Source: Candidatus Hydrogenedentota bacterium
Lineage (GTDB): Bacteria; Hydrogenedentota; Hydrogenedentia; Hydrogenedentales; JAEUWI01
Assembly (NCBI GenBank): GCA_016791475.1
Contig: JAEUWI010000016.1
Coordinates: 62,001-126,000, forward strand
Length of the DNA stretch: 64,000 nt
Direction: 5' to 3'
Shown here: positions 25,991 to 63,100 of the stretch, one piece after another
How positions within the stretch are numbered: position 1 is the stretch's first letter
How the letters are laid out: every line of letters begins with the position of its first letter
Notes under the pieces: generated by a model
Databases searched by the model: none
The model's input: the letters and a program-made list of their open reading frames with translations, nothing else
Told to the model about the DNA's origin: nothing
Translations under genes and position numbers: made by a program

Positions 25991-26091
25991 TGGAAGGAAC
26001 CTCGCGAGCAACTCGCACTTGTAGAGCTAAGCATGGTGGGGGTACCGATTGCGGCCCCGGATCATGACAAATAACGGGGGGGAAAGACAAA

Positions 26092-26227
26092 TGGACAATG
26101 GACAATGGACAATGGACAATGGACAATGGACAATGGACAATGGACAATGGACAATGGACAATGGACAATGGACAATGGACAATGGACAATGGACAATGGA
26201 CAATGGACAATGGACAATGGACAATGG
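26092..26227. repeat. Perfect tandem array of TGGACAA, 19 units
   Basis: Nineteen identical TGGACAA heptamers (26092-26224) plus a partial TGG. Because 7 is not a multiple of 3, every frame reads a 7-residue repeat, so the apparent open frames are artefacts. It lies between the epimerase start and the end of the exosortase-partner gene. The reverse complement heptamer TTGTCCA recurs at 63059-63100. Such arrays recall the STRR heptamers of some cyanobacteria and are likely to vary in copy number. Confidence 0.95.
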
Positions 26228-40478: not shown

Positions 40479-41360
40479 ATGATACCCGCCGAAGTCATGC
40501 AGCAGATACAGCGGATGCACATTCGCACGCGCCGCGTCGTGAATGAACTGCTGGCCGGTCAGTATGAAAGCGTCTTCAAGGGGCAGGGGATGGTCTTTAA
40601 GGAAGTCCGCGAGTATGTCCCCGGCGACGATGTGCGGTCCATCGACTGGAACGTGACGGCGCGCACGGGGCAACCCCATATCAAGGTGATGACGGAAGAG
40701 CGGGAGCAGACGGTGATGCTGGTGGTGGACGGCAGCGCGTCGGGGCGCTTTGGCAGCCGTTCGCGCCTCAAGAGCGAGTTGTGCGCGGAGCTGTGCGCGG
40801 TCCTGGCCTATTCGGCGATTAAGAACAACGACAAGGTGGGCCTGTTGATATTCACGGAAGAGGTGGAGCTATTCGTGCGCCCGGCCAAGGGCCGCAAGCA
40901 TGTGCTTCGCGTTATTCGCGAGTTGCTGTGTTTCGAGCCCCGGGGGACGGGCACCAATCTGGCCGGGGCGCTGGACCACCTCAATCAGGTGGTGGCGCGC
41001 CATGCGATCGTGTTTATCGTGTCCGATTTCATGGCGGCGCAGTACGAGCCCGCGCTGCGTATCACCCGGCGCAAGCATGACACCATTGCCGTGGCGGTGG
41101 ACGATCCTCGGGAGTTTATTCTTCCGAATGTGGGCGTGATTTCGGTACGGGATTGCGAGACCGGCGTGGAGGCGGTGGTGGATACGGGCAGCCGCAATCT
41201 TCGGGAGGCCTATGAGGAGGACGGCGAACGGCGGAGAGGTCACCGGGCTTCGGTGCTCAAACGTACCCGTGTGGATTTGATCGAGGTGCGGACGGACACG
41301 GGCTATATCGACGCACTGCACCGCTTTTTCAGGATGCGCGAGCGGCGGCTGCTGGCGTGA
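40479..41360 (+). CDS. DUF58 / vWA-like protein of the MoxR-Bat cluster
   Basis: 293 residues. The DUF58 signature FKEVREYVPGDDVRSIDWNVTART is near residue 40, followed by a vWA-like fold with VMLVVDGSASG; the MIDAS DxSxS is degenerate to DGSAS. No membrane segment. Such proteins partner MoxR ATPases in envelope-stress or aerotolerance systems. It comes directly after moxR; a 372-base repeat-filled gap follows before the next Bat gene. Confidence 0.88.
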   Translation: MIPAEVMQQIQRMHIRTRRVVNELLAGQYESVFKGQGMVFKEVREYVPGDDVRSIDWNVTARTGQPHIKVMTEEREQTVMLVVDGSASGRFGSRSRLKSELCAELCAVLAYSAIKNNDKVGLLIFTEEVELFVRPAKGRKHVLRVIRELLCFEPRGTGTNLAGALDHLNQVVARHAIVFIVSDFMAAQYEPALRITRRKHDTIAVAVDDPREFILPNVGVISVRDCETGVEAVVDTGSRNLREAYEEDGERRRGHRASVLKRTRVDLIEVRTDTGYIDALHRFFRMRERRLLA

Positions 41361-41437
41361 AAGACGTTTTGAAGAGGACTTAGTTGACCATGGATTACCT
41401 GGAGCAGCCGCTGGCCACAACCCAGAAAGTTCTGAAC

Positions 41438-41467
41438 CGCAAATTTACGCAAATTAGCGCAAATTTT
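41438..41467. repeat. 10-bp phased triad, CGCAAAT type
   Basis: CGCAAATTTA, CGCAAATTAG, CGCAAATTTT in tandem: the heptamer CGCAAAT with a 3-base variable spacer. Preceded by GAAC, as is the next triad. Confidence 0.75.
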
Positions 41468-41496
41468 TTGATGGAGAAGGTGGAGGAGATTTGAAC

Positions 41497-41526
41497 CGCG
41501 AATGAACGCGAATGCACGCGAATATC
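41497..41526. repeat. 10-bp phased triad, CGCGAAT type
   Basis: CGCGAATGAA, CGCGAATGCA, CGCGAATATC: same plan as the triad 59 bases upstream, with CGCGAAT as the core and TGAAC before it. Confidence 0.75.
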
Positions 41527-41582
41527 CAGTTACCTTTGATGTACACGAATGGGTCTTCCTGCAGCGTATTGAACATGTTTGT

Positions 41583-41655
41583 TTCCGTGGAATTCCGTGC
41601 CCTTCCGTGGTCAATAAAAGAAGATTGACCACGGAAGTACACGGAACTTCACGGA
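41583..41655. repeat. Inverted repeat built of TTCCGTG triads
   Basis: Left arm: TTCCGTG three times at 10-bp spacing, ending TTCCGTGGTCAAT. Right arm (41624-41655) is the complement, ATTGACCACGGAA then two more CACGGA units. The loop is 8 bases. The whole can fold into a ~32-bp imperfect stem. A relative with the same units is at 58862-58943. Confidence 0.8.
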
Positions 41656-41732
41656 GGGTTCTCTGTGATGAATGACCTCTTCTGGACCTTCCAAGTCTCT
41701 GAATGACAGAAAGTGAATATGAAACAGCACCC

Positions 41733-42665
41733 ATGATCTCCACCTGCCTTCTCATAGCCGCATTACTCGTCGCCGGGGCGGATGTTCCGGTGTCGGCCCG
41801 TGCGGAGCTTGACGCGGCGGAGATTCCCTTTCACCGCGTGGCGCATTATCGCGTGATTGTGGACGCGCCGGCCGATGCGGTGCTGGCAGTGGAGCCGTGG
41901 GGGGAGTCCTTGCCGGGATTGCGGGTGACCACGGGCGAGTCTTCGGAAATATCCCTCCCCGACGGGCGGAAACAGCTTGTGCAGGCCTTTACGCTCACGC
42001 CGAGCATCGTGATGAGTTACACCTTGCCCGCGACCCGCGTGATGGCCAACGGTGCCGAAGTGGCCGTGGTGGAGCCTCTTGCGTTGGTGGTCCGTACGCT
42101 CACGCCTGAAGAGAAAGCCGAGGTGTCCGCGCCGGCGGCGTTGTACACGTTGGCCGATTTGGAGCATTTGGGCTCCAGCGGTCGGGGTCGTGCTGTCGGC
42201 CTGGGAGCGATCATAGTTCTCGTTGCGGCGCTGCTGGTGGTCTTCGCAACACGCGGTTTACGCCGCTGGAATGCACGTCCTGTGCCCACGCCCGTTGAAG
42301 TGGCGGAAGCCGAACTCGCCGCTCTGGAGCAGGCGCTTCAGTCAGGTGTGATTTCCTGCGATGCGTTTTATGTCGCGCTGTCCCAACTGCTTCGCATCTA
42401 CCTCGGCACGAGTTTCGATCCGGCCGTGGCCGGGCAGTCGACGCCGGAGTTTCTGGCGGAGACGCTGCCGGGGCTTCCGCTCGACCCGGCCCATTCGGGG
42501 AGCATTCGCGACATGCTCGGGGCCTTTGATCGTGTCAAGTTCGCGCAGTATTCTCCTGATCGTGAAGGGCAGGCCAGGGAACTTCGGGCGGTTCGAAACC
42601 TGATAGCGGCATTGGAAAACGAGGCGTCCAGGCGTGCCGAGCAGGCCCTGCGGGGGGCGGCGTAG
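41733..42665 (+). CDS. Membrane protein of the Bat cluster (DUF4381-like)
   Basis: 310 residues from the ATG at 41733, chosen because it opens a signal peptide (MISTCLLIAALLVAGADV). A beta-rich periplasmic domain of ~130 residues is followed by one membrane helix (VGLGAIIVLVAALLVVFATRGL) and a cytoplasmic helical tail (residues ~200-310). This is the topology of the small membrane protein that accompanies BatA/B. It is close to the downstream vWA gene (four bases between stop and ATG). Family assignment is by topology and context. Confidence 0.65.
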   Translation: MISTCLLIAALLVAGADVPVSARAELDAAEIPFHRVAHYRVIVDAPADAVLAVEPWGESLPGLRVTTGESSEISLPDGRKQLVQAFTLTPSIVMSYTLPATRVMANGAEVAVVEPLALVVRTLTPEEKAEVSAPAALYTLADLEHLGSSGRGRAVGLGAIIVLVAALLVVFATRGLRRWNARPVPTPVEVAEAELAALEQALQSGVISCDAFYVALSQLLRIYLGTSFDPAVAGQSTPEFLAETLPGLPLDPAHSGSIRDMLGAFDRVKFAQYSPDREGQARELRAVRNLIAALENEASRRAEQALRGAA

Positions 42666-42669
42666 GGCC

Positions 42670-43713
42670 ATGGCGGACTGGTTTTCCTTTCACACCTTGC
42701 GGCAACCCGACTGGCTCTGGCTGGCTCCCCTGGCGCTGGCGTTGCTGGTGGCGGAGTGGGGCGCGAAGGCCCCGTCATCGCTGCGCATGTCCACCGGCGC
42801 ACGGCTGGCTTGGATGGTCAAGGAGCGCCGTTCGCTTCTGCGTTTCCTTCCGCCCCTGCTTCGATGTGGCGGGTTGTGCGTGCTTCTGGTGGCGCTGGCG
42901 GGTCCCCTGAACGGTTTCCGGCAGCGTTCCGAGCACGCGGACGTGATCGATATCATGCTCTGCGTGGACGTGTCCAGCAGTATGGCCAGTTCCGACTTCA
43001 TGATCGGCACGACCCCGGCCAACCGCCTCGATATCACCAGGATCGCGGTAGCCAATTTCATCGAAAGCCGACGCCTCGCCCCGTCAGACCGCTTTGGCGT
43101 GGACCGTTTGGGACTTATTCTTTATGCGGGTATCGCCTGGACCGCGTGTCCCCTGACCCTGGACTACGATATCCTGACCCACGAGGTTGCCCGGGTGGAA
43201 CCCGCTTCGGATCGCGATGCGAGCAAGAGCGGCACCGCCATCGGATCGGCGATTGGCCTGGCGGCGCGTCGTCTCAGTCAGAGCGAGGCCAAGTCCAAGG
43301 TGATTGTGCTGCTGACGGACGGGGTGAACAACCGATTTCAACTGGACCCCATGACGGCGGCGCAGATTGCCGGCCAGTACAAGATCAAGATCTATACGCT
43401 CGGGGTTGGTCCGGTGGAGGACGCGCAGCGCATGGGCAACGTGACCGCGCAGGCCCGGAGTCAGGGAAATCTGGTGGATGAAGCGACCTTGCGCAACATC
43501 GCCTCGGCCACCGGCGGCGCGTACTTTCGCGCGACGGACCTTGTTTCGTTGGAGCAGGCTTACAAGGAGATCAATCAACTCGAACCGACCGAGATCGAAG
43601 CGGGCGACCTGTACGAGTACGAGGAAGCGCACATGCCCTGGGTTCTCCTTGGCGCGTGTCTGCTGGGAACGGCGGTCTTCTCGCGGCGGATCTGGTTTGA
43701 GGTGCTGCCATGA
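42670..43713 (+). CDS. batA: vWA-domain membrane protein (BatA-like)
   Basis: 347 residues. Two N-terminal helices (LWLAPLALALLVAEWG, PPLLRCGGLCVLLVALAG), then a vWA domain with an intact MIDAS motif DVSSSM near residue 100, TDGVNNRF near 220, and a C-terminal membrane helix. BatA-type proteins form complexes with BatB in the inner membrane. The stop overlaps the next gene by four bases (ATGA). Confidence 0.88.
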   Translation: MADWFSFHTLRQPDWLWLAPLALALLVAEWGAKAPSSLRMSTGARLAWMVKERRSLLRFLPPLLRCGGLCVLLVALAGPLNGFRQRSEHADVIDIMLCVDVSSSMASSDFMIGTTPANRLDITRIAVANFIESRRLAPSDRFGVDRLGLILYAGIAWTACPLTLDYDILTHEVARVEPASDRDASKSGTAIGSAIGLAARRLSQSEAKSKVIVLLTDGVNNRFQLDPMTAAQIAGQYKIKIYTLGVGPVEDAQRMGNVTAQARSQGNLVDEATLRNIASATGGAYFRATDLVSLEQAYKEINQLEPTEIEAGDLYEYEEAHMPWVLLGACLLGTAVFSRRIWFEVLP

Positions 43714-44801
43714 ACGCAACCACCCTTAGCCCCGGTGCGCTTGCGCTGGTAATTGCCTTGGGCATGGCTCTTCTCGCCGCGCTCTGGTGGACCCTGGCCT
43801 GGCTCGAGAATCGCCGCGGCGACCGGCTGGCCCAATTCGCGGAGCATGCGCTGCTGGAGCGTCTCGCAACGGGCCATGTCCCAGGATTGCGCAGGCCGCT
43901 GAATCTGTTGGTGATCGCCGGCGCCGCCTGCCTGTTGCTTGCCATCGCTCAGCCGCGCTGGGGCGGAAGTGATGCTGGAACGCGACGGGGCAGCCGGGAG
44001 ATCCTGGTGCTGCTGGACACGTCCGAGAGCATGAACGCGGTAAATCCCGCACCGAGCCGTCTGGCCCGGGCCCAGTCCAAGATCACCGCGCTCCTGGAGG
44101 CCTGTTCCGGCGATCGATTCGGACTGATCGCATTTTCCGGTGCGGCCGTGCTCCAGTGCCCCTTTACGCGCGACCACGCCTATTTCAAGACCGTTCTCCA
44201 GTCGGTGAACACCGATACGCTCACGGAGGAAGGTACCGATATCGCCTCCGCACTGGAGGAGGCCGAAGACCTTTTCAACGACGAGCGGGGCCGGGGCAGC
44301 GGCGCGGCGCGGGATGATCGCATGATACTTCTCATCAGCGATGGCGAGTCGTCGCAGAACGAGGCCGTCGCGGTGGCGGGGCGCCTGGCGTCCTTCAGCC
44401 GGATCGCCGTATTGGGGATCGGCGATCCCGGCGGTGCGGAAGTGGTGCTGCCCCAATGGATGGCGCGGGCCCAGTCGGCGCCGGTGCGCGAAGTTACCCA
44501 CTGGTCCGCGTTAAACGAAGACGCGCTGAGTTCCATCGCGCTGGCGGGCGGCGGGTTCTATGTGCGCAGCACGCTGAGCGGCGATGATCTGGACGTGATA
44601 CTGGGGGAGATGGCCGCCCTCGAGGGCATTGTGGGGTCGGAGGCTGGGCGTCCCCGGGAAGTGAACCGCTATCGCTGGCCCCTGGCGTTTGCGTTGTTCT
44701 TTTTCGCCGCCGAGGGTTTCTGGCTTGTCTGGATGCCGCGCGCAGTCCGACGCGCCGCGAAGGCGAAATCCAGCGGGGAGACCGTGCATGCGCTGGTGTA
44801 G
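43710..44801 (+). CDS. batB: vWA-domain membrane protein (BatB-like)
   Basis: 363 residues. N-terminal helix, then the vWA domain with MIDAS DTSESM near residue 109, the Thr in TEEGTDIASALEEA, the Asp in ISDGESSQNEA, and a C-terminal helix (FALFFFAAEGFWLVW). BatB pairs with BatA. The next gene starts 14 bases before this stop, so translation is tightly coupled. Confidence 0.88.
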   Translation: MNATTLSPGALALVIALGMALLAALWWTLAWLENRRGDRLAQFAEHALLERLATGHVPGLRRPLNLLVIAGAACLLLAIAQPRWGGSDAGTRRGSREILVLLDTSESMNAVNPAPSRLARAQSKITALLEACSGDRFGLIAFSGAAVLQCPFTRDHAYFKTVLQSVNTDTLTEEGTDIASALEEAEDLFNDERGRGSGAARDDRMILLISDGESSQNEAVAVAGRLASFSRIAVLGIGDPGGAEVVLPQWMARAQSAPVREVTHWSALNEDALSSIALAGGGFYVRSTLSGDDLDVILGEMAALEGIVGSEAGRPREVNRYRWPLAFALFFFAAEGFWLVWMPRAVRRAAKAKSSGETVHALV

Positions 44802-45459
44802 CGTAATACTTCCGGCCCTCTGCCTGTTGACGGCCTGCTCGGGGGCGTTGGACGAATCGCTCTCGCGGGGCGCGTCGCTCCAGCGTACCGGGCAACCGGC
44901 CGAGGCCTTGCGCAGCTTCCGTGAAGCCCGGGTGGAGCATCCGGAAGCCGTGGACCTCATTTTCGCCATGGCCGGGGCTGAAGCCGCGCTGGGTGAGCAG
45001 GTTCTGGCGTCTCGGGCGCTCGACGAGGCGACGGAGCGATTTGAATCCGCCGCCCGGACCTTCGGGCGATGCGGCGCCGATGAACGGCTCGCCGAGAGCG
45101 CCGCATACAACGCGGCGACATGTTTGCTTTACGTGGACCGAGTGCTGGAGGAGAAAAGAGACTACGACGGGCGCGTGGAGAACTTGAAGCGCGCCGTGGA
45201 GGCGCTCTCCGCCGTGACCGAGGCCTGGCCGGACAACGCGCGGGCCGCAAAGAGCCTCGACTATGCGCGGTACCGGCTTGCACTTCTGCTTCAGACCCCG
45301 CCGTCTCCCGAGGAGGAAGACAAGGAAGGTCCGGAGGATGGCAACGAGCCGGTCAGTGAGGTGGCGGGCGCGACGACGCAGATCCCCGGGGCCACCGTAG
45401 ACGTGGTGGACGGTGCAATGGTCGTATTGCGCGTGGAACGAGGGCAGGACGCGCCATGA
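44788..45459 (+). CDS. TPR-type lipoprotein of the Bat operon (BatC-like, N-terminal part)
   Basis: 223 residues; the start overlaps the batB stop, with GGGGAG eight bases upstream. Lipoprotein signal peptide MRWCSVILPALCLLTAC. Residues ~35-170 are Ala-rich helix pairs of TPR type (QPAEALRSFREARVEHPEAVDLIFAMAGAEAAL). An acidic segment follows (PPSPEEEDKEGPEDGNEP), then a short strand region. BatC proteins are TPR proteins located between batB and batD, so the position fits. It is shorter than I would expect for a complete BatC; see the next gene. Confidence 0.65.
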   Translation: MRWCSVILPALCLLTACSGALDESLSRGASLQRTGQPAEALRSFREARVEHPEAVDLIFAMAGAEAALGEQVLASRALDEATERFESAARTFGRCGADERLAESAAYNAATCLLYVDRVLEEKRDYDGRVENLKRAVEALSAVTEAWPDNARAAKSLDYARYRLALLLQTPPSPEEEDKEGPEDGNEPVSEVAGATTQIPGATVDVVDGAMVVLRVERGQDAP

Positions 45460-46274
45460 GAGGTATGCACTTGCTTCTGGCGATGCTGACCCTCCTTGGT
45501 CAGGACGATACCACAGAGACGGCGTCGCCGGAAACGGTCCGCGTGCTTGCCATTGAGGCGCGCCAGGTGGATGGGGCGCCCCGGCATCTGGATGCGTCGC
45601 TGTCGGGACTTGGAGAACTGCTGGAGAAGGTGCCGGGCAATCAGTTCACCGAGAAGAGCTACATTGAACTGGAGGCCCACTTCGGACAGGAGACCGTGGC
45701 GGACCTGGGCGGAGGTTATGCGTTTGGGTTTACCGCGTCCGACGTGACGGAACTGGGCGAGATTGAATTTGCGTGCCACATCGACCTGACGGAGGGCGAC
45801 CGCACGGTGGAGGCGCTCCGTGTCACGGGGAAGGCCGTGCGCGGTCAGGGGGCGGTGTTTCGCGGTTTGACCTTGCCTCAAGGGGAATTGGTGGTGGTTA
45901 TGAGCATCGCGCGGGCGGACGATCCGCCCGGGCGTGGCGGCAGCGGCGGCAGCGGACAGGAGCGTGGCGGGGCCGAGGGGGGCGGCGCCGGTTCGCCGGG
46001 TGAAGAGGGAGCGGGCGATGGGGATACGAAAGCGCCGGAAGAGCGGCCTTCCCCGCTCCCCGAATTGCCGTCGCGGCAGCTTCAGGTTGAAGCGGAGCCT
46101 TTGGAGGAGACCACGGAGCGGGGTGGGACCGTTGGTGTTGGCGACGCCGCCCCGCCGCCGGATATGGCCGCGATCGAAGGGATTCTGCGTGCGCTGGAAG
46201 AGCAGGACATGGCGGAGCAGAAGAACGCCCGCGGTCGGCGCTTTGAAGTAAAGATGAGAGGAGACTGGTGGTGA
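45456..46274 (+). CDS. Secreted protein of the Bat operon with low-complexity linker and RGDWW end
   Basis: 272 residues, overlapping the previous stop (ATGA). Short signal peptide, then a ~140-residue beta-rich domain (VADLGGGYAFGFTASDVTELGEIEFACHIDL). Next is a ~70-residue Gly/Ser/Glu/Pro-rich linker, and last a helix MAAIEGILRALEEQDMAEQK leading to RGDWW. That tail resembles the C-terminus I recall for BatC proteins (LL-AL---E then KDW). It may therefore carry the part missing from the preceding TPR lipoprotein. Function otherwise unknown. Confidence 0.55.
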   Translation: MRGMHLLLAMLTLLGQDDTTETASPETVRVLAIEARQVDGAPRHLDASLSGLGELLEKVPGNQFTEKSYIELEAHFGQETVADLGGGYAFGFTASDVTELGEIEFACHIDLTEGDRTVEALRVTGKAVRGQGAVFRGLTLPQGELVVVMSIARADDPPGRGGSGGSGQERGGAEGGGAGSPGEEGAGDGDTKAPEERPSPLPELPSRQLQVEAEPLEETTERGGTVGVGDAAPPPDMAAIEGILRALEEQDMAEQKNARGRRFEVKMRGDWW

Positions 46275-47695
46275 ATCTGGTCCGATGGATAGGCATCACC
46301 GCACTTTGGTTCGTTGCTTTTCCGGCACCGGCGGATACCCCGCAGGCCGCCCGGTCGACTCCCGCGACCCTGGAACAGGCGGTTCAGATTACCAGTAGCA
46401 TTGATCGGGGCGAGGTCTACCTTGGCGAAGCCCTCAACCTGACCCTTGAATACCGGGAACTGAGCGTGCGCGGTCTCAGGGTTCAGCAATTGTACCGCAG
46501 CGGCAACATCGAGCTGCCCTCCATGGAGGGCTTTTATGCCGGCTCACTTGTGACCGAGAAAGACAATATCGTGATCGATGGCGCGCTCTACGCCGTGACG
46601 CGTCACCGCCAGCGAATCTATCCCGCGGTCGCCGGCGAACTTCAGATCGGGCCTTGGCGGTGGCAGGGGACGGTACGGGGTCATACGGCGACGGGCAATC
46701 CTTCCATGGAGCTCGACCTGCATACGCCCGCGATCACGGTTCGTGTGCAGCCACTGCCGGCTCCTCCCTCGACGTTTCGCGGGGCGGTGGGCGAGTTCAC
46801 CATCGCGCAGGCCCTGCCCGTATCCGAATTGATCCAGGGTGTACCAGTGACGCTGGTGCTGACTGTGGCGGGTTCGGGCAACCCGGGAACCCTTGAGGCG
46901 CCCGTGGTCCCCGAGGCCCCGTGGTTCTCCGTCGAGGACCAAAGGGAAGAACGCGCACCCACGCCCGAGTCGCCCACCGGGCAGTTTTCCAAGCAATTCA
47001 GCTATTCCCTGATGCCTCTCAAGGCCGGCAGTTTCAATGTGCCCGCTGTATCACTCACGTACTTCTCACCGGCGACCCGGCAGTACAAGAGCATCCGCAC
47101 GGCACCCGTTTCGGTGAGCGTGAAGGCATCAGGTCCCGCGGAGTCGCTCGTGGTTGTCGGCGGCCGTGCCGACGGAACCGGCGCACCGGCGTTGATGGAA
47201 AACGGTCGCTTCGCCCTGGCGGACGAAGCCTTTGATTTGACGATCATACAAGACTCCCCAGGGCTCTGGATCGTGCTGGTTTCTCTGCCTCCCATCGTGT
47301 GGCTGTGCCTGATGCTGAAAGAAGGGCGGTGGAGGCGGGCCAGGGTGTGGCGCTGGTCCCGCCACCGCCGGGGGCATCTTTCCGCCCAGTTCCAGGCCCT
47401 GGCGGCCCATCCGGAGCCGGTGGAGGCGCTGAATGGGCTCTTGAACGGCGCGCTACATCGGGGGCTGGCGGCCGGACACGCGGGGCGGGCCCTCGGGGAA
47501 GTCCGCAGCGACCTGGAGGACCTGCTTGCGCCGGGGGACGTCACCACCATCGTCCGGGCGATCGAGGCCTGCCGTGACCATCGCTATGGCAAAGAAGCCC
47601 TGGCGCTTGAGGATCTTGAACGGGTGATCGAGGGATTGGCGGAAGCACTGGAGGCCCTGCAGGACGCGTCGCGTGAAACGGGGGCAAAGCCATGA
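46268..47695 (+). CDS. batD: BatD-like oxygen-tolerance protein
   Basis: 475 residues from GTG 46268 (a second GTG one codon on is possible); overlaps the previous stop. N-terminal signal peptide, then two immunoglobulin-like regions rich in beta strands (VQITSSIDRGEVYLGEALNLTLEY, LIQGVPVTLVLTVAGSGNPGTLEAP), the BatD signature of repeated 'PxxxLT'. One membrane helix (LWIVLVSLPPIVWLCLMLK) near residue 340 is followed by a cytoplasmic helical tail. It acts in the envelope with BatA/B and BatE. Confidence 0.82.
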   Translation: MVNLVRWIGITALWFVAFPAPADTPQAARSTPATLEQAVQITSSIDRGEVYLGEALNLTLEYRELSVRGLRVQQLYRSGNIELPSMEGFYAGSLVTEKDNIVIDGALYAVTRHRQRIYPAVAGELQIGPWRWQGTVRGHTATGNPSMELDLHTPAITVRVQPLPAPPSTFRGAVGEFTIAQALPVSELIQGVPVTLVLTVAGSGNPGTLEAPVVPEAPWFSVEDQREERAPTPESPTGQFSKQFSYSLMPLKAGSFNVPAVSLTYFSPATRQYKSIRTAPVSVSVKASGPAESLVVVGGRADGTGAPALMENGRFALADEAFDLTIIQDSPGLWIVLVSLPPIVWLCLMLKEGRWRRARVWRWSRHRRGHLSAQFQALAAHPEPVEALNGLLNGALHRGLAAGHAGRALGEVRSDLEDLLAPGDVTTIVRAIEACRDHRYGKEALALEDLERVIEGLAEALEALQDASRETGAKP

Positions 47696-48453
47696 CGATG
47701 CTGTGTGTGGTGCTGCTATCCTTTGGCGCCGACGCCTACGAAGATTTTCGGGCGCGGGGCGACGCGGCCTACATGGGGGGAGATTTCGCCACCGCGATCT
47801 CGGCCTACGAGACCCTGGCCGATTCGGGCGTCGGCAACCCGGAGCTCTATTTCAATCTGGGCAATGCCTATTACCATGGGGGCGATCTTGGCAGGGCCGT
47901 GCTGAATTACGAGCGGGCAGCGAGCCTCGGCCCCGAGTTTTCGCCCGCCCGCCGAAATCTCGAGCGGGTCATACAGGAGACGGCAAACAAGCGTTCGCGC
48001 CCCGACGGCTTTTCACTGGCGGGGCTTGGCCCTTCGCGTCTGCCGGGTCTGTCGCAGGCCGCGCTGCGCAAGGGTCTTCTGGCAATCTGGTGGTTGATGT
48101 GGAGTATACTTATCGTTAGAACTCGAAAATCATCCACATCCCGCACCGCGTCCGCCGCGTTCTGGATTGTTACCACCCTCTGCGTGGCGGGTTGGGCCAT
48201 TCCTGGCCCACCGATCCAGTCCGCCGTGGTCGTCTCGGAGGAAGCCCCCATGCGCTATGGTCCCGATGCGTCCGACGCGGTACGCGCCACACTGGCGGCG
48301 GGGGACCGGGTGCTGATCGATCAAGTGTATGGCTCCTGGGCGCGGGTAGAAATCGCCTCGGGCGAACGCGGCTGGCTGGACCGGGGCGCGCTGGCCCTGG
48401 CCGGTCCGCCCTTTTCCAGGTCGGAAACGGAGAGAGAGCAACCACCTCAGTGA
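47692..48453 (+). CDS. batE: BatE-like TPR and SH3-domain membrane protein
   Basis: 253 residues; overlaps the batD stop. TPR units in residues ~15-100 (AYMGGDFATAISAYETLADSG, NPELYFNLGNAYYHGGDLGRAV), two membrane helices around 130-165, then an SH3-like region (VLIDQVYGSWARVEIASGERGWLD). This domain order is that of BatE. It ends by GTGA overlap with glnD, so the operon runs on. Confidence 0.78.
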   Translation: MTMLCVVLLSFGADAYEDFRARGDAAYMGGDFATAISAYETLADSGVGNPELYFNLGNAYYHGGDLGRAVLNYERAASLGPEFSPARRNLERVIQETANKRSRPDGFSLAGLGPSRLPGLSQAALRKGLLAIWWLMWSILIVRTRKSSTSRTASAAFWIVTTLCVAGWAIPGPPIQSAVVVSEEAPMRYGPDASDAVRATLAAGDRVLIDQVYGSWARVEIASGERGWLDRGALALAGPPFSRSETEREQPPQ

Positions 48454-51137: not shown

Positions 51138-51149
51138 GGAGAACGACTG

Positions 51150-52553
51150 ATGTTCCGATTGGCCCGGCCCCTCTCGTGGGTGGTGGTGATTGCCATTGCG
51201 CTCATGCCCGCCGGCGCGCGCAGCCCGATCCTGCGCGAGATTGAGGACAGCTTCGTGCGCTTGCATGAGGAGGTCCGGCCCTGTGTCGTCTCGATAGAGG
51301 TGCAGGGCGCGGTGGTGGAAGCGGGCAACCAGGGTCTGGATGAACTGCACCAGTTCTTTGGATTGCCGGTGCCCGAGCAGGACGAAGGCCAGCCGGAGGA
51401 GACGCCCCGCGCAACGGGAAGCGGCTTCATCTACGATTCGGAAGGGCATATCGTCACCAACAATCACGTCATAGCCGATGCCGCGAAGATCGAGGTGCTC
51501 CTGTCCAGCGGCAAGCGCTATGAAGCGAAAGTGGTGGGGACCGATCCCGACACGGATCTGGCGGTTATCAAGATTGAAACCGACGAAGTGCTGACGCTCG
51601 CGCGGCTGGGCGATTCCAGCGCGCTGAAGGTGGGACAATTTGCCATCGCCATGGGGAGTCCCCGCGGCTTCGAAGGCTCCCTCTCATTCGGCCACATCAG
51701 TGCGCTGGGCCGGAACAATCTCTGGGGGCTGCAAGCCCAGGGAATCCGCTTCCAGAACCTGATCCAGACCGATGCGGCGATCAATCTGGGCAACAGCGGC
51801 GGCCCGCTGTGCAATATCGACGGCGAAGTAATCGGCATCAACATGGCCATCATCTGGGGTGCAAACTCCATTGGATTCGCCATCCCCGTCAACGAGGTGA
51901 AGAATATCGTCCCCGATCTGATTGCGGACGGCAAAGTGACCCGTGGATTCCTGGGGGTGCACATCGACGACGCGAAGGGCAGTGTGTCCGAGGTGCTCGG
52001 ACTACCCGACGAGTTCGGCGCGGTGGTGGAGGAGGTCCAACCGGACACACCCGCTTTTCGGGATGGTATCCAGGTGTATGACGTCATCCGCAAGGTGAAT
52101 GGGGAGCCCATCCTGGACGCCGCGGAGCTGATCCGAAAGATTTCCGCGATTCCCCCGGGCGACACCGTGATGATCGAAATCTGGCGCAAGGAAGAGAGCA
52201 TCGAGATACAGACCGTGCTCGAAGAATGGAAGAGCGCTGCGGAGTCGCCGCAACAGGAAGCTCCCGTGCTGGGCATGCAGCTCCAGGAAATTGGGCCGGA
52301 AATCCGAAAGCAGTTGAACCTGCCCGAGACCGAAGGGGGACTGCTGGTGACCGAGGTCAAAGCCGGCAGTCCGGCGGAAGAGGCAGGCCTCGCCGCGGGC
52401 GACCGGATAACGGAAGTTGCCCAGATGCCCGTTTCGTCCGTGGAAGCGTTCCGGCGCCTCGCCGGGGAGCGGGCGGGTTCGGGCAAGTCGATATTGGTAC
52501 GTTACGTCCGGGGCGATGCCTCCCCGGATATCACCGTGATTCGGGTTCCCTGA
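51150..52553 (+). CDS. HtrA/DegP-type periplasmic serine protease with two PDZ domains
   Basis: 467 residues, GAGGAG before the ATG. Signal peptide (SWVVVIAIALMPAGA). Trypsin-like domain with catalytic His106 (VTNNHVIA), Asp136 (PDTDLAV) and Ser216 (GNSGGPL). PDZ1 around residues 265-360 (FLGVHIDDAKGSVSEVL) and PDZ2 around 370-467 (VTEVKAGSPAEEAGLAAGD). It degrades or refolds damaged periplasmic proteins. Twelve bases after glnD, so probably the last gene of the Bat-glnD transcript, linking envelope quality control to that operon. Confidence 0.92.
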   Translation: MFRLARPLSWVVVIAIALMPAGARSPILREIEDSFVRLHEEVRPCVVSIEVQGAVVEAGNQGLDELHQFFGLPVPEQDEGQPEETPRATGSGFIYDSEGHIVTNNHVIADAAKIEVLLSSGKRYEAKVVGTDPDTDLAVIKIETDEVLTLARLGDSSALKVGQFAIAMGSPRGFEGSLSFGHISALGRNNLWGLQAQGIRFQNLIQTDAAINLGNSGGPLCNIDGEVIGINMAIIWGANSIGFAIPVNEVKNIVPDLIADGKVTRGFLGVHIDDAKGSVSEVLGLPDEFGAVVEEVQPDTPAFRDGIQVYDVIRKVNGEPILDAAELIRKISAIPPGDTVMIEIWRKEESIEIQTVLEEWKSAAESPQQEAPVLGMQLQEIGPEIRKQLNLPETEGGLLVTEVKAGSPAEEAGLAAGDRITEVAQMPVSSVEAFRRLAGERAGSGKSILVRYVRGDASPDITVIRVP

Positions 52554-52640
52554 CCCACCCCCGATTTGGACGTAGCCGACGTTGGGAACCCGTCGGCAGC
52601 GTAGAACGCCCCCTAGCGCGGGCATCGGAGCATTGGAAAC

Positions 52641-53909
52641 TTGGCGACAGAGACAGAGCGGTTTCGGGAGGCCCGCATACTCATAACGGACGACCAGGAG
52701 AGCGTCGTAACCTTGATTGAGCGTGTCGTGCGCGACGCGTTCGGCTGCCACATCGATACCACCCATACGGGGGACGAAGCGCTGACCTTGCTTCAGGCCG
52801 CGCCCTACGATGTATTCGTGACCGATATGAAGATGCCCGGCACCCACGGCCTTGAATTGATTGAGAAGGCGATCTTAGCCTGCCCCGAGGTGGATATCCT
52901 TGTCATGACGGGTTATCCCGGCGACTTCCCCTATGTGGAGGTCATTCAGCGGGGCGCAAAGGATTTCCTGAACAAACCTTTCCTGCCCGCCGAGCTGGAG
53001 GCCAAACTGATTCGGGTGCTGCGGGAGCGCCACCTGCGCCATGACTTGGTCGTCGCACATAAGAAATATCGCAGTCTTTTCGATTTGAGCATGGACGGGA
53101 AGCTCCTGCTCAACATGGATCGCCTGCTTATCGAAGACGTCAACGAAGCCTACTGCACATTGCTGGGCGTGGACAAGAAGGAGCTGGTGGGGCGGGTCTT
53201 TTCGGAGGCCCTGGAGACCGCTGATCGCGAGCGTTTCGAACTCTGGATGGGCGTGTGCAGCCGGAGCGGCAAAGGCACCATGGGCGATCTGCCCGTGCGT
53301 CATGTGGCCGATCACTGCCTTCACTTCGATGTGACGGTGACCATGGTTCACGCCGACAGCGAGCAGTTTGCCTTCCTGGCCTTTAAGGACATCACCGAGA
53401 AGCAGGAAGTGGACCGCAAGCTGGCGGAGGCCGCGCAAAAGGATGCGCTGACGGGTCTGTACAACAAGCGTTCCTTTACCAATCGCATTGAATGGGCGGT
53501 GGCCAGCGCCGCGGAAAAAGGCGCGCCACTGGCCCTGCTCATGATCGATCTGGACAACTTCAAGCGCTGTAACGACACCAACGGGCACCAGACGGGCGAT
53601 ACCCTGCTCAAGAGCGTGGGCGATGTGATCAAGAAAAGCATCCGCATCACCGCCTATGACGAAGGCTTTCGCTGTGGCGGCGACGAATTTGCCGTGTTGC
53701 TGCACAATTTCTCGCCGTCGGGTTTCACGGTGGTTGCCGAGCGCATGCAGAGCGAGTTTGCCAAGGTGGAACGTTTTGGCACGACCATGAGCATTGGCGT
53801 GTCGGAGTTCAAGGCGGGAATGAATTCCGGCGACCTGATTGAGGCGGCGGACAAAGCGCTCTACGCCGCCAAGGCCATGGGGAAAAACGCAATCAGCTAC
53901 GCACCCTGA
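52641..53909 (+). CDS. Response regulator with PAS and GGDEF domains (diguanylate cyclase)
   Basis: 422 residues from a TTG at 52641 with GGAG upstream. Receiver domain (residues ~10-130) with phospho-Asp62 in VFVTDMKMPG and Lys in FLNKPF. A PAS-like domain follows at ~145-255 (DGKLLLNMDRLLIEDVNEAYCTLLG). The GGDEF domain runs from ~270, with KDALTGLYNKRSF, DLDNFKRCNDTNGH and the active-site GGDEF at 346-350. It should make cyclic-di-GMP. The inhibitory I-site RxxD five residues before GGDEF reads TAYD, so Arg is missing and product inhibition may be absent. No partner kinase is adjacent. Confidence 0.92.
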   Translation: MATETERFREARILITDDQESVVTLIERVVRDAFGCHIDTTHTGDEALTLLQAAPYDVFVTDMKMPGTHGLELIEKAILACPEVDILVMTGYPGDFPYVEVIQRGAKDFLNKPFLPAELEAKLIRVLRERHLRHDLVVAHKKYRSLFDLSMDGKLLLNMDRLLIEDVNEAYCTLLGVDKKELVGRVFSEALETADRERFELWMGVCSRSGKGTMGDLPVRHVADHCLHFDVTVTMVHADSEQFAFLAFKDITEKQEVDRKLAEAAQKDALTGLYNKRSFTNRIEWAVASAAEKGAPLALLMIDLDNFKRCNDTNGHQTGDTLLKSVGDVIKKSIRITAYDEGFRCGGDEFAVLLHNFSPSGFTVVAERMQSEFAKVERFGTTMSIGVSEFKAGMNSGDLIEAADKALYAAKAMGKNAISYAP

Positions 53910-53961
53910 AGTGTCCCCGTTCCCCTTTTGAGGCGAGCGGCGACTCGAAGCCGCCCCCGGC

Positions 53962-55038
53962 TCAGGGGGCGCTTGTCGCCCGCGCCGTCTTCACCGGTGG
54001 GCCGAAGACCTCCTTCAGGAAGGCAATGGCGACCTGCTCCACGCGCTGGTTGACCGGGTTGGCAATATCCATGGCGTGGGGCCAGCCGTCGATGCGGTCG
54101 TACCAGTAGGTCATGCCCAGTTCCTGGAATTTCTCCGCCAGAAGGTCGGACTGCTCCACGGGCACGAGGGTATCAATGGTGCCGTGTATGATCAGCGTGG
54201 GCGGGTCGCTCGGATCAAGATAGGTGATGGGGGAGCCCTTCACGAACTTCTCGGGGACCTCCTCGTAGGTGCCCTGCATGAAGCCGGTCAACAGGGGATG
54301 GTCGCGGTTGGCCGGCATGGTGAAATCGGCGGGGCCGTAGATGTCAATGACGGCCTGGACCGCGCTGCTGACGCCCGGGTTGCCGCCCTGGCCTTCAAAT
54401 TCGGCCACGTCGGAACTGTAACCGACCATCATGGAGAGGTGGCCTCCCGCAGAGCCGCCGATGACGGCGATTCGGTTTGGATCAACATTGAGTTGGGCCG
54501 CATTGGCCCGCATCCAGCGCACGGCACACTTCACATCTTCCACGCAGTTGGGGAAATAGCCCGCCTCCCGGAGCCGGTAGCTCACGGTGGCCACCACATA
54601 GCCATGGGCCGCGAAGCGCGTGGTGTAAAACTTATAGTCCTGGCGCTTGCCGCTGCGCCATCCGCCGCCGTGAATAAAGATGATACCGGGCACCGGGCCC
54701 GTGAGGTTCTCGGGCGTATAGAGATCCAGTTCAAGCGGCGTTCCGCCCCCCGTGCCATAGGGAATGTTGATCTGCTCCTTGACGCCCGCGGGCACCGGGA
54801 TCGGCGCATCTTCGTCCAGCGTGTCCAGCTTATACCAGCCCATTTCCTGAAGGGCGAAGGCGGCATAGAGCATGCCCTCGGAGAGGAAGCCTTTCGGCGG
54901 CGGGCCGAGGGACTCAGGCACGCGCACCAGGTCGGGGCGCTTCGCCGGCGGGCCGGTGTGGATGAAAAGCCAGTAGGCGCCCGACAGAAGAGCGAGGAGC
55001 AGGAGACCGGCAATCGAGCGGAGCAGAATTCTGAACAT
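53962..55038 (-). CDS. Alpha/beta hydrolase, esterase/lipase (HSL/BD-FAE-like), first of tandem pair
   Basis: 358 residues with an N-terminal signal anchor (LLLLALLSGAYWLFIHTG). Oxyanion motif IFIHGGGWRSG near residue 123, nucleophile Ser in GGSAGGH near 195, Asp in HGTIDTLVP near 290 and His in GWPHAMD near 320. It is most like carboxylesterases that cleave acyl or feruloyl groups from sugars. Located outside the cytoplasm by the anchor. Its paralogue lies 270 bases upstream on the same strand; that gap carries a short 'CCACGAAGG' direct repeat. Confidence 0.85.
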   Translation of the reverse strand: MFRILLRSIAGLLLLALLSGAYWLFIHTGPPAKRPDLVRVPESLGPPPKGFLSEGMLYAAFALQEMGWYKLDTLDEDAPIPVPAGVKEQINIPYGTGGGTPLELDLYTPENLTGPVPGIIFIHGGGWRSGKRQDYKFYTTRFAAHGYVVATVSYRLREAGYFPNCVEDVKCAVRWMRANAAQLNVDPNRIAVIGGSAGGHLSMMVGYSSDVAEFEGQGGNPGVSSAVQAVIDIYGPADFTMPANRDHPLLTGFMQGTYEEVPEKFVKGSPITYLDPSDPPTLIIHGTIDTLVPVEQSDLLAEKFQELGMTYWYDRIDGWPHAMDIANPVNQRVEQVAIAFLKEVFGPPVKTARATSAP

Positions 55039-55308
55039 GGAATATTCCGATAGGGTTATAACGCTAAGTTGCAGCGAACTGACGCATTATCCGTACAAAT
55101 CAACAGGACAAGAGCGGATACCACGGGAGGGTTTGACGCTGCCGTTGACCGCGATCAAATACTTCACCACGAAGGCCACGAAGAAAAGAAGAGAGAAGGA
55201 ATCGCCACGCGCCTTGCGTTCCCGCCTTCAATCCAGGCAAGGCCAATTTACACTCCTGGTCGCGACACTTGCATTACCACGGTACATTCCGTGAACGTTC
55301 GGACCCAC

Positions 55309-56349
55309 TCAGGCGCCTTCGGGTTTCCCGAAGACGTGTTCGAGAAAGGCGCGGATCGTTGGTTGAACCCGGTTGGTTACCGGAATGGCCACGTCCATCG
55401 TGTGGGGCCAGCCGGGGTAGCAATCGTACCAGTAGTCCGCCTTCAGGGCCTGAAGTTTCTCCGCAAGCAGGTCCGCCTGCTCCGAAGGGACGATTGAATC
55501 GAGGGTGCCCTGAATGATGAAGGTGGGCGGATCCGAGGCATCCAGTTGATGGAGGGGAGATGCGTCCCGGTACTTGTCGGGAGCCTTCGAATAGGGCACG
55601 CCCATGAGGCCGACAACGCTCACATGCTCCTGGGCCACAGGTGCGGTAAAGTCCGTGGGGCCATAGAGATTGACCACGGCTTGAATTGCACTGCTGACAG
55701 CGGGATTGCCGCCGGTGCCTTCCAGCGCTGCGACGTTGCCCGTGTAGCCCAGCATCATGGCGAGGTATCCGCCACCCGAACCGCCCGCCGCCGCAATCTG
55801 GTCGGGGTTGATGCCCAGGCGCTCCGCATTGGCCCGGAGCCAGCGAATGGCGCATTTGGAATCGCTCACGCAGCCGGGGAACTTGGCCACGTCGCTGAAG
55901 CGATAGCCGATGGTCGCCGCCACATAGCCCCATTCGGCGAACTGCTGGGCATAGATGGTGTAGTCCTTGCGGCTTCCTTTGACCCAGCCGCCGCCGTGAA
56001 TGAACACAATCGCCGGACGGGGCGTCGTGATGTTTTTCGGGCGGTAGACGTCGAGCAACAGGGGGATGTCACCCTCCCGGCCGTACTCCACGTCCAGTTC
56101 CGCTATCACGGAATCCGGCAGCGGCGGCGGGGATTCCAGGTTCAGTAGTTGGAGTCGGCCCATCGCATACGCGGCCATCAGGGCGTTTTCGGTGGGGTAG
56201 CCTTTGGGCGGGGAACCCCACTCCTCCGGCATGCGCACGAGGTCGGTCCGTACGGCGGCGGCGCGGCCATCAAGCAGTAGCCACCATCCGGCGAAGGCGG
56301 TGGCGGCGACGAGGGGGGTCAAGGCAACAATTAGAATAAGTCTACGCAC
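55309..56349 (-). CDS. Alpha/beta hydrolase, esterase/lipase (HSL/BD-FAE-like), second of tandem pair
   Basis: 346 residues from a GTG at 56349; longer in-frame starts lack a signal and a ribosome site. N-terminal helix (LILIVALTPLVAATAFAGWWLLL). Same motifs as the neighbour: FIHGGGWVKG, nucleophile in GGSGGGY, QGTLDSIVP, GWPHTMD. The two align over most of their length, including RMPEEWGSPPKGYPTENALMAAYA against RVPESLGPPPKGFLSEGMLYAAFA, so they arose by duplication. Substrate unknown; likely a carbohydrate ester. Confidence 0.85.
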   Translation of the reverse strand: MRRLILIVALTPLVAATAFAGWWLLLDGRAAAVRTDLVRMPEEWGSPPKGYPTENALMAAYAMGRLQLLNLESPPPLPDSVIAELDVEYGREGDIPLLLDVYRPKNITTPRPAIVFIHGGGWVKGSRKDYTIYAQQFAEWGYVAATIGYRFSDVAKFPGCVSDSKCAIRWLRANAERLGINPDQIAAAGGSGGGYLAMMLGYTGNVAALEGTGGNPAVSSAIQAVVNLYGPTDFTAPVAQEHVSVVGLMGVPYSKAPDKYRDASPLHQLDASDPPTFIIQGTLDSIVPSEQADLLAEKLQALKADYWYDCYPGWPHTMDVAIPVTNRVQPTIRAFLEHVFGKPEGA

Positions 56350-56691
56350 GTGGGAGGGTCCTGGGGTGGCGCAATTAGCTATCGATGGCGTAATTGTCGC
56401 ACGAAGCACGGCCTGGGGACAAACCACGGGGGACGTACCGCCGCACGGGTCCTCGACGTAGCCAGTCGCTCGTCCAGCGCACGTCCCTAGCCCCGCCCAA
56501 CGAAGCTTTCGCCAACGCGGCGGCATGTCCCAGTGGATGTTGGAAAGGTGACGCGCGTCATGTCCGGGTCGCCCCACCCATCCCCTGGGACAGGCACGCG
56601 CTTTTGCGTCACTGATGCAATGAACGGGTGCCGGGAAGTCACCCAGTGGCCCGCGTTCGCAGAAGTGGTGTGCGTGGGTCCGTCCACACAC
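56350..56691. other. Intergenic region without a supported gene
   Basis: I see no gene. There are short imperfect inverted repeats (for example GTGACGC near 56548 with GCGTCAC near 56606) and a CCTGGGACAGGCACGCG stretch near 56585 that looks REP-like. Nothing is strong enough to annotate. The MFS terminator lies at its right end. Confidence 0.4.
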
Positions 56692-56727
56692 AAAAAAATC
56701 CCGTGTCCGCCGAAGCGGGCACGGGAT
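56692..56727 (-). terminator. Intrinsic terminator of the MFS gene
   Basis: Read on the minus strand: a 13-bp stem, ATCCCGTG(C/T)CCGC, around a 4-base loop, followed by seven T residues (seen as AAAAAAA at 56692-56698 on the plus strand). It is 27 bases past the transporter stop. Confidence 0.85.
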
Positions 56728-56753
56728 GAACTGACTCAGGTTAGCGCGGATGA

Positions 56754-58256
56754 TCAGTGGTCTATGTGAGCCACCTTATATCCGCCCTTGGACTTGAAGT
56801 AAACGATGAGAATTATAAAGCAGACAAACATGATGCAGGGGAAGATCGCCACCGTCTTGAGGGCGCCCTTCGTAGCGTTCGTCTTTACCGTCGTAATGGT
56901 GGCGGTGTCCGCCTCGGGAGCGGCCTTTTCCTTTTCCGGATCGAGCGCCGTGATCTGACCGAAGATCGTGGGCTTGGGCGAGGTGTACTGCTGATAGATT
57001 GCAGGACTTTCCTTTTCCAGGACTGTCGCCACGGACGTATCCTGAATGTACCCGAGGAATGGCGCACCGACGATACCGACAGCGAGCATGCCCACGCCAC
57101 CCAGGGTATTCAGCGTGAGGGCACCGCCCTTGGGGAACTGTTCGGCGGCCACACCGAGCATGGTGGGCCAGAAGAAGGTTTTGCCGAAGGCATAGAGTGT
57201 AGCGGCGGCCAGAATGACAACCCCGGTCGCCTGGGAAAGGAACACCAGGCCACATGCCGCGATCACCGCGCTACCCGCCAGCAGACCCAGGGGGGAGAGC
57301 TTGTGAACGATAGAACCGGCGCAGAAGCGGAGCAACATCATGATGAACGAGGTGTAGATGAGCACCCAGAGCGGCTGGAAGCCGAGCTTGTTCATCTCCG
57401 GTTCCATGAGCGGCGTGATCCAGCTATCGGTGCCCAGTTCCGTCGTTGCCAGCGGCATCATGACCAGCAGCATGAAAATGAAGAGGGGCTTGCCAAGGGA
57501 TTTGACGTAGAAACCGTAAATGCCGGTCAGGGCCACAATAATGGCGAGTTCCAGCACAAGCGGGAAGGAGAACACGCGCCCGACTTCGGCGGTCATGAGG
57601 GAGACGACGATAAAGGCACCGATGATGCCCACTTCCTTGAGCATGGCGAGGTACGATACACCCGATTCCACACGCTCGTGAACAGGAAACTTTTGTCCGA
57701 AGAGCATCACGGCATAGATGGCCGTGGGGATCAGAATGAGACCTACCTTGATCTGCCAGTCCGCGTCCGCGCCCAGCGCGATGGCCATGACACCGCCGAT
57801 CACCATGCCGCCCGGCCAGCCCGCGTGGAGGATGTTGAGCCACTTGGTCTTTTCGTTTCGGAACATGGTGGCCACAACAGGGTTAATCACGGCTTCCACG
57901 GCGCCGTTGCCCAGGGCCACGATGAATGTGGCAATGTAAAGCATCCAGTATCCCGTGGCGAAAATGGTCAGGACGGCGGAAATTACGTGGCAGGCAAAGG
58001 CAAATGCCATGGCCCGGCCATAGCCGATTCGATCAATCACCAGACTGAACAGGATGATGCTCAGGGCAAAGGGCCAGAGGCCCACACCAAAAATCTCACC
58101 CTTCTGGGTTTCCGTGAGTCCAAACTCGGTGCCCCAGTCATTGATGACCATGGATCGGACGACGAAACCGAAGGCCGTGGCGATCAACGCGATGAAGCAG
58201 CCCCAGAATAAACGCTTCTGGTGCGCTTCAATGCCGGCTGTTTGCTCTCCACTCAT
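56754..58256 (-). CDS. Major facilitator superfamily transporter
   Basis: 500 residues with about twelve hydrophobic helices. The N-half signature is LVIDRIGYGRAMA between helices 2 and 3, and VEAVINPVVATMFRNEKTKWLNILHAGWPGG resembles sugar-proton symporters of the FucP/nucleoside group. A loop rich in Asp/Glu/Lys/Pro lies before the last helix. The ribosome site is AAGG seven bases from the ATG. The substrate cannot be fixed; a sugar is likely from local hydrolases. A strong terminator follows. Confidence 0.85.
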   Translation of the reverse strand: MSGEQTAGIEAHQKRLFWGCFIALIATAFGFVVRSMVINDWGTEFGLTETQKGEIFGVGLWPFALSIILFSLVIDRIGYGRAMAFAFACHVISAVLTIFATGYWMLYIATFIVALGNGAVEAVINPVVATMFRNEKTKWLNILHAGWPGGMVIGGVMAIALGADADWQIKVGLILIPTAIYAVMLFGQKFPVHERVESGVSYLAMLKEVGIIGAFIVVSLMTAEVGRVFSFPLVLELAIIVALTGIYGFYVKSLGKPLFIFMLLVMMPLATTELGTDSWITPLMEPEMNKLGFQPLWVLIYTSFIMMLLRFCAGSIVHKLSPLGLLAGSAVIAACGLVFLSQATGVVILAAATLYAFGKTFFWPTMLGVAAEQFPKGGALTLNTLGGVGMLAVGIVGAPFLGYIQDTSVATVLEKESPAIYQQYTSPKPTIFGQITALDPEKEKAAPEADTATITTVKTNATKGALKTVAIFPCIMFVCFIILIVYFKSKGGYKVAHIDH

Positions 58257-58521
58257 ATTGCTACCTTTCCCTGCTGTTGTTCCCGATGAATGCGGAAGCT
58301 GAAGTTAAACGATCTGCCAACACGCAGCACGAGCAGACCTGGATTGACCCGATATACACAGGGAAAGGATAGTACCCATAATCCCGCCCCGGTTCAAGTT
58401 GCGGGAATACGGTTTTGGAGGGGGAGTCCAGATTCGCGGCGCCTGTTCCCAAAAGGGGCCGAGGCGGCTATACTGGTATCGGCGGCGGTCGCCTTGTGGA
58501 ATTCCCGGAGAAGATCACACC

Positions 58522-58830
58522 ATGGAACACAATCCCTATGAGCGGTTTCGCGGGCAGAAGCTCTCGCTCAACGATTATCTGGCGATTGACCGCACGGAGC
58601 TGGCCAACGAGCGAACCCTGTTGGCCTATGGCCGCACATCCATCGCGCTGGTGATTACGGGCGGGTCCGCCATGAAGTTCTTCGAGTCCCGGTGGGTCGT
58701 GCTTGCGGGCGCCGGTTTTGTGGTTGTCGCAGTCGTGGTCATGATCGTCGGTTGGCGGCGTTATCGCGCGATGGACCGGCGTCTGGGCGGGGCATTGGAA
58801 CAGCGGGCGGGGGATGTTAATCAACAATGA
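58522..58830 (+). CDS. DUF202 (YidH-like) small membrane protein
   Basis: 102 residues from the ATG at 58522, GGAG about 11 bases upstream. Signature LAIDRTELANERTLLAYGRT, then two membrane helices (SIALVITGGSAMKFF; VVLAGAGFVVVAVVVMIVG). DUF202 proteins are inner-membrane proteins of unresolved role, sometimes tied to osmotic or oxidative stress. Divergent from the MFS gene with a 265-base gap. A TTCCGTG inverted repeat lies just downstream. Confidence 0.8.
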   Translation: MEHNPYERFRGQKLSLNDYLAIDRTELANERTLLAYGRTSIALVITGGSAMKFFESRWVVLAGAGFVVVAVVVMIVGWRRYRAMDRRLGGALEQRAGDVNQQ

Positions 58831-58861
58831 TGCCCAATCTGTCGACCGACCTCCGCTCTTC

Positions 58862-58943
58862 CTTATTTCCGTGAAGTTCCGTGCCTTTCCGTGGTCCCGA
58901 AAAAGCTTGACCGCGGAAAGGCACGGATCCTTACGGCAATAAG
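58862..58943. repeat. Inverted repeat built of TTCCGTG triads
   Basis: Left arm 58862-58896 contains TTCCGTGAAG, TTCCGTGCCT, TTCCGTGGTC at 10-bp spacing. Right arm 58909-58943 is its imperfect complement (GACCGCGGAAAGGCACGGA and onward), with a 12-base loop. It shares units and plan with 41583-41655. It lies between the DUF202 gene and the secreted hydrolase. Confidence 0.8.
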
Positions 58944-63058: not shown

Positions 63059-63100
63059 TTGTCAATTGTCCATTGTCAATTGTCCACTATCAACTATTTT
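63059..63100. repeat. Heptamer array TTGTCAA/TTGTCCA
   Basis: TTGTCAA, TTGTCCA, TTGTCAA, TTGTCCA, then decayed CTATCAA and CTATTTT. TTGTCCA is the reverse complement of the TGGACAA unit at 26092-26227. The array runs directly into the ilvD -35 region. Confidence 0.85.

Follow-up and report, generated by a model that had tools for sequence, protein, structure and literature searches.

The triads of 7-mers found in a 64-kb stretch of the genome of a Candidatus Hydrogenedentota bacterium (hereafter the window) are copies, lying there without a gene, of the ends that flank genes of the GxxExxY family elsewhere. Each triad consists of three direct 7-mer cores of the form C-R-C-R-R-A-(G/T/A), with no palindrome, and three core types are represented in the window. 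These triads are probably the cognate sites of GxxExxY nucleases, which would spread the repeats in the way proposed for repetitive extragenic palindromic (REP) sequences and their REP-associated tyrosine transposases (RAYT). The features of the window, numbered from its first nucleotide, are the following:

41438..41464, + strand: CGCAAAT triad, spacing (10,10), preceded by the leader GAAC
41497..41523, + strand: CGCGAAT triad, spacing (10,10), leader GAAC
41583..41609, - strand: CACGGAA triad (TTCCGTG on the + strand), spacing (10,10), leader GACC
41630..41656, + strand: partner triad CACGGAA/CACGGAA/CACGGAG, inverted relative to the triad at 41583..41609
41583..41656, no strand: head-to-head CACGGAA pair, a 74-bp unit resembling a REPIN (REP doublet forming a hairpin)
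41402..41664, no strand: composite dispersed repeat with CGCAAAT, CGCGAAT and CACGGAA modules
58867..58893, - strand: CACGGAA triad (TTCCGTG on the + strand), spacing (10,10), leader GACC
58912..58938, + strand: degenerate partner triad CGCGGAA/CACGGAT/TACGGCA, inverted relative to the triad at 58867..58893

An earlier note on this DNA had described four of these triads, CGCAAAT, CGCGAAT and twice TTCCGTG, as repeating at exactly 10 bp, the TTCCGTG ones with mirrored partners. All four were recovered at this pitch, as were the partners at 41630-41656 and, in degenerate form, at 58912-58938. The 64-kb window contained no further exact triads at period 10 and none at periods 8, 11, 12 or 13, while period 9 yielded one tandem array only, which is unrelated. 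Exact gapped triads were then counted irrespective of core in 464 kb of the genome, where some stretches had been picked for containing known sites, so that the absolute density is inflated. The excess at period 10 held up, with 17 triads of that period against 4 of period 9, and with periods 8 and 11 empty; all 17 belonged to the CRCRRAW-type family and the shuffled 464-kb sequence gave no gapped triads at periods 8 to 11.

The three cores had been taken for unrelated sequences, which was wrong: TTCCGTG is CACGGAA read on the opposite strand, and all three fit CRCRRAW. Triads of the three types also have in common a leader, gAAC or gAC, ahead of the first core. The degenerate pattern CRCRRAW-N3-CRCRRAW-N3-CRCRRAW had 77 + 76 matches in the whole 7.7-Mb genome, and its reversed-pattern control 0 + 0. 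Across 218 triads flanking genes, the core read C (98%), R, C (100%), R, R, A (99%), then G, T or A; variation at positions 2 and 5 was almost solely between A and G, and at position 4 mainly so. These percentages come from triads retrieved with a matching search pattern and describe the family rather than prove it. The open-access literature held no relevant repeat sequence or family name matching the triads.

The genome of the window contains six GxxExxY genes, each of them (6/6) flanked at either end by inward-facing arrays of triad type; the cores are CGCAAAT, CACAGAT, CACGAAT, CACGAAG, CACGGAG and CGCAAAG. The flanked genes pass the curated cut-offs of both family models (PF13366, 116-150 bits for a cut-off of 22; TIGR04256, 126-155 bits for a cut-off of 35). 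This family was first suspected from what we took to be odd N-terminal extensions of annotated GxxExxY proteins, and the suspicion was then tested. Triads upstream of GxxExxY open reading frames (ORFs), for instance at loci L002, L057 and L062, translate in frame into peptides such as HHEEHEVHEG and NHGKHGNTRK, and annotated GxxExxY N-termini may include translated repeats. The four-helix-bundle 23S-IVP family (PF05635) was rejected as a partner: its three good matches in the genome had no triads nearby.

The association extends far beyond this genome. Scanning a genome collection returned 80 GxxExxY loci from many phyla, among others Acidobacteria, Chloroflexota, Bacteroidota, Proteobacteria, Planctomycetota, Verrucomicrobia, cyanobacteria and methanogenic archaea. 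A relaxed set comprised 182 bacterial and archaeal genes with sufficient flank, in which inward triads were accepted with at most one mismatch; such triads lay on both sides of 118 genes and on at least one side of 154. Among held-out loci, both sides were flanked in 21/34, with equal spacing at the two ends in 18 of these 21. Near genes a reversed-motif control was unsuitable, as 8-bp arrays partly match it, and distance from the gene was used as the control. Strict inward triads were present within 250 bp of the gene in 89/188 cases upstream and 96/182 downstream, and at 750-1000 bp in 1/104 and 0/108, respectively. A motif-free test gave inverted similarity between both flanks above the 99th permutation percentile for 88/182 genes. 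Direct similarity exceeded this percentile for 53/182, which is expected wherever extra triads of the other orientation are close by.

The two ends of a locus agree with each other in spacing and in core. In the strict set, the spacing pattern was equal at both ends in 49/51 cases (10,000 permutations: mean 13.4, maximum 25) and the first core in 42/51 (permutation mean 8.4, maximum 18); in the relaxed set, both ends shared their spacing in 109/118. Sister GxxExxY loci use pitches of (8,8), (8,9), (9,9) or (9,10), each pattern being common to both ends. The earlier proposal that ten-base phasing places every copy on the same helical face therefore fails as a general rule, since sister families use 8- and 9-bp pitch. 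Unequal spacings were polar among matching pairs, (8,9) occurring 27 times against none for (9,8) and (9,10) 17 times against 2 for (10,9). This fixed and polar spacing suggests a defined protein assembly rather than same-face phasing.

The GxxExxY protein itself is, by its modelled structure, a small PD-(D/E)XK-fold nuclease of about 120 residues. The model had a predicted local distance difference test score (pLDDT) of 94, and its top structural matches in Foldseek were mostly PD-(D/E)XK nucleases. Residues D67, K79, Q91 and Y95 are invariant and E77 nearly so, following a D, ExK, Q..Y pattern. The identity of the protein is connected to that of its sites by a residue-base correlation. Core base 5 was best explained, among all protein columns, by residue 5 (z = 15.5, next best column 10.2), which stands at the start of the first helix in the numbering of the L068 domain. 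A threonine at this residue went with G at core base 5 in 52/52 cases, and valine, alanine or cysteine almost always with A. The link held within both large clades (p = 1.4e-9 and 2.3e-5), and core base 4 was best explained by residues 1-2. The rule was fixed in writing before it was applied to a held-out set of 35 proteins less than 85% identical to the training set, where residue 5 called base 5 correctly 21 times and wrongly never, with 6 proteins not predicted (Fisher 8.6e-6). Relatedness among proteins is only partly removed in these statistics, and an independent-pairs test agrees with them in direction. As residue 5 predicts core base 5, the nuclease very likely reads these sites. Of the earlier interpretation, a common origin and protein binding are thus retained, on the strength of one repeat family, one protein family and the held-out correlation; the notions of unrelated cores and of a general same-face arrangement are not.

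Spacing and core also follow the descent of the protein. A tree of 107 proteins explains the spacing class with 36 changes, whereas shuffling gave 63.5 and 0/200 shuffles came as low; for the last core base, 7 changes suffice. The T-ending period-10 core types of the window group with one protein clade. Related species keep GxxExxY genes at the same chromosomal place, where syntenic comparisons showed the GxxExxY DNA to be usually less conserved than its neighbours. At three syntenic places the core had switched at both ends together: CGCAAAT/CGCGAAT at L004/L188, and CGCAGAT/CACAGAT at L063/L214 and L257/L258. The nucleases at these sites were 50-64% identical and the flanking DNA 69-81%; a similar picture would result if the entire element had been replaced in situ. 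The L004/L188 couple has two of the core types of the window, since the core at 41438..41464 is that at the ends of the GxxExxY gene L004 in the same genome and the core at 41497..41523 that of the syntenic gene L188 in the sister species G001. In another sister species, G003, a GxxExxY gene has the third type, CACGGAA, in its flanks.

Dispersed copies of a given core were more numerous in genomes where the cognate gene was present for three of four cores (p = 2e-4, 2.5e-4 and 0.03). CGCAAAG is most abundant in G002, with 22 sites, and in this genome a CGCAAAG triad lies 80 bp from a GxxExxY gene. Copy numbers vary strongly between close species. In the genome of the window, CACGGAA copies include 74-bp head-to-head pairs, and similarity among copies ends at the triads. 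The module at 41402-41664 has whole or partial copies elsewhere in the genome, at 70-80% identity and in nested arrangements. The genes orthologous to those bordering 41360-41703 stand only some tens of bp apart in G001, with no triad between them; either one lineage therefore gained this block or the other lost it. The orthologous intergene in G002 (L147) has no triads and contains two other sequences resembling dispersed repeats, around GGCACAGCCGTCTCGGCTGTG and CATCCCCGCGAACGCGGGGATCC; this intergene may be a hotspot for repeats.

Other arrangements of triads were encountered. In G020 (L274-L276, L278), paired CACAGAG triads form tandem arrays of about 195 bp reminiscent of bacterial interspersed mosaic elements, many of them at contig ends. 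In G013 (L300-L316), most CGCAGAT triads lie within a larger dispersed repeat (about 110 bp) flanked by two GC-rich hairpins, one of which resembles GTCATCCCCGCGAAAGCGGGG. At G000 C5:52486-53229 (L025 1548-2291), two CACGGAA triads that face inward at a distance of about 740 bp have further triads and a pilin/GspG-like ORF between them. A hidden nuclease was sought inside this pair and none was found; triad pairs can therefore bracket unrelated genes. Two further repeats of the window are a perfect tandem array of AATGGAC at 26090-26227 (19.7 copies, 100% matches), which overlaps predicted ORFs, and a short array of TTGTCAATTGTCCA-type units at 63059-63093, with about two copies of 14 bp.

We infer with good support that the GxxExxY protein binds its own triads directly, and less firmly that one protomer occupies each 7-mer, that the protein cuts at the sites and that cutting spreads the repeat. 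Typically, a GxxExxY gene is enclosed by an inverted pair of triads with the core type belonging to it, and further copies of this core, single or as inverted pairs, are dispersed over other intergenic regions of the genome. In the proposed mechanism, amino acids where the first helix begins would select the purine at each of core positions 4 and 5, and a triad would probably take up three protomers, one for each 7-mer. Action of the nuclease at the triads would then have allowed the repeats to spread, much as REPs do through TnpA-REP/RAYT, whereas the gene mostly stays at one chromosomal site.

Several observations weigh against this mechanism. The Foldseek E-values were weak, the best being 0.01, and a sequence search for a solved homologue of GxxExxY found none. 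CGCAAAG counts do not track the gene under the strict test. CACGGAA has 32 sites in the genome of the window, a metagenome-assembled genome 96% complete, without a detectable cognate gene, and G020 and G030 carry many CACAGAG triads yet have 0 PF13366 matches. Some dispersed triads ride in larger repeats, as in G013, so another mechanism may spread them. Residue 2 called base 4 correctly for 7 held-out proteins and wrongly for 3, and was rejected as a full predictor of that base (7/10). The phylogeny-aware independent-pairs test for residue 5, which has low power, gave 4.7 pairs in the same and 0 in the opposite direction (median p 0.06). Finally, no insertion was caught with exact ends, so that the evidence for mobility is indirect. 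Nor was there a clear target-site duplication: direct repeats of 2-8 bp outside the ends were not consistently above permutation, a few offsets showing a small excess.

Three other explanations were weighed. Unlikely, though the best placed of them, is that the triads are regulatory operators through which GxxExxY controls its own gene by the flanking sites and other genes by the dispersed ones, with neither cutting nor spreading. In its favour, triads are mostly intergenic, 18/27 sampled ones lying outside long ORFs although ORFs cover 92%; the residue-base code, moreover, speaks for recognition and not for cutting. Yet the gene has triads at both ends, those downstream being as frequent as those upstream, and copies occur between genes of every relative orientation. 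The nuclease residues are invariant, and the strong differences in copy number between close species fit spreading repeats better than a regulon.

Rather less probable still is an ordinary transposon, in which GxxExxY would be the transposase of a small insertion sequence (IS), the triads its terminal inverted repeats and the copies in the window miniature inverted-repeat transposable elements (MITEs). The gene does lie between inverted ends (median span 509 bp), inverted pairs without a gene exist, and the block at 41360-41703 is present or absent according to species. These features have to be set against the lack of a clear target-site duplication and the permanence of the genes at one chromosomal site across species. 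Near-identical full-length copies were not seen within a genome except for one tandem duplication (L194), and the six GxxExxY genes of the genome of the window are diverged and have different cores. Searched with one clade, 0/50,697 phage records and 8/72,556 plasmids contained GxxExxY, all eight plasmids being predicted non-mobilizable.

The earlier note had also described the mirrored triads as long hairpins. The pairs do form inverted structures; between their arms, cores match at 93% and spacers at 55%, and we rejected the hairpin as the conserved feature. Since cores match far better than spacers, recognition of the cores is favoured over the hairpin as such. That the repeats are driven by structure, as terminators or RNA hairpins among which nuclease genes merely happen to lie, is very improbable, as short-loop inverted pairs exist but the arms match far less in their spacers than in their cores, Rfam gave nothing above any gathering score, and neither the residue-base code nor the fall-off with distance from the gene would be explained.

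The proposed spreading of cognate sites by the GxxExxY nuclease has to be compared with known systems. Iterons of plasmid replication origins are short direct repeats about one helical turn apart that are bound by a protein. The triads differ from them in usually having three units, in being inverted around a nuclease gene, in their clade-wise pitch of 8-10 bp and in their many chromosomal copies. Like the ends of MITEs and IS, they enclose a single gene in inverted orientation and also occur as pairs from which the gene is missing; they differ in lacking a clear target-site duplication, in the fixed gene sites and in the near absence from phages and plasmids. By both models (TIGR04256 and PF13366, PDDEXK_3), whose descriptions state no function, the gene that the triads enclose belongs fully to the GxxExxY family; what is added here to this family is the flanking cognate triads and a specificity code. 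We found no description of GxxExxY function or of triad repeats in the open-access literature, closed-access papers and preprints lying outside the search. A large set of unexplained dispersed intergenic repeats is now linked to GxxExxY genes, and these gain a testable role in the site-specific recognition of tripartite repeats.

The closest likeness is to REP/REPIN-RAYT systems (TnpA-REP, 'REPtron'), where the gene is bordered on either side by its own dispersed repeat, one copy inverted relative to the other (PMC2817692, PMC3116915, PMC8266576). As there, repeats are scattered between genes as single copies, inverted doublets and tandem arrays, and enzyme and repeat co-evolve. The enzyme here has a PD-(D/E)XK fold instead of being a Y1 HUH tyrosine enzyme, the flanked gene matching PDDEXK_3 / GxxExxY and no HUH family, and the repeat comprises three 7-mers at 8-10 bp pitch instead of a palindrome with a GTAG-type tetranucleotide head. 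Because these two defining features fail, the triad system, whose range covers archaea and many bacterial phyla, is not a member of REP/RAYT. We see about an even chance that it represents a new and very widespread class of nuclease and repeat, independent of REP/RAYT and characterized by a simple residue-to-base code where the first helix begins, a tripartite site, co-evolution at a fixed locus and copies of the site across the chromosome. If so, the specificity for sites could be predicted from sequence by means of the code, and the arrangement typical of REP/RAYT, in which a gene on the chromosome is accompanied by a repeat population of its own, would have arisen with an unrelated nuclease.

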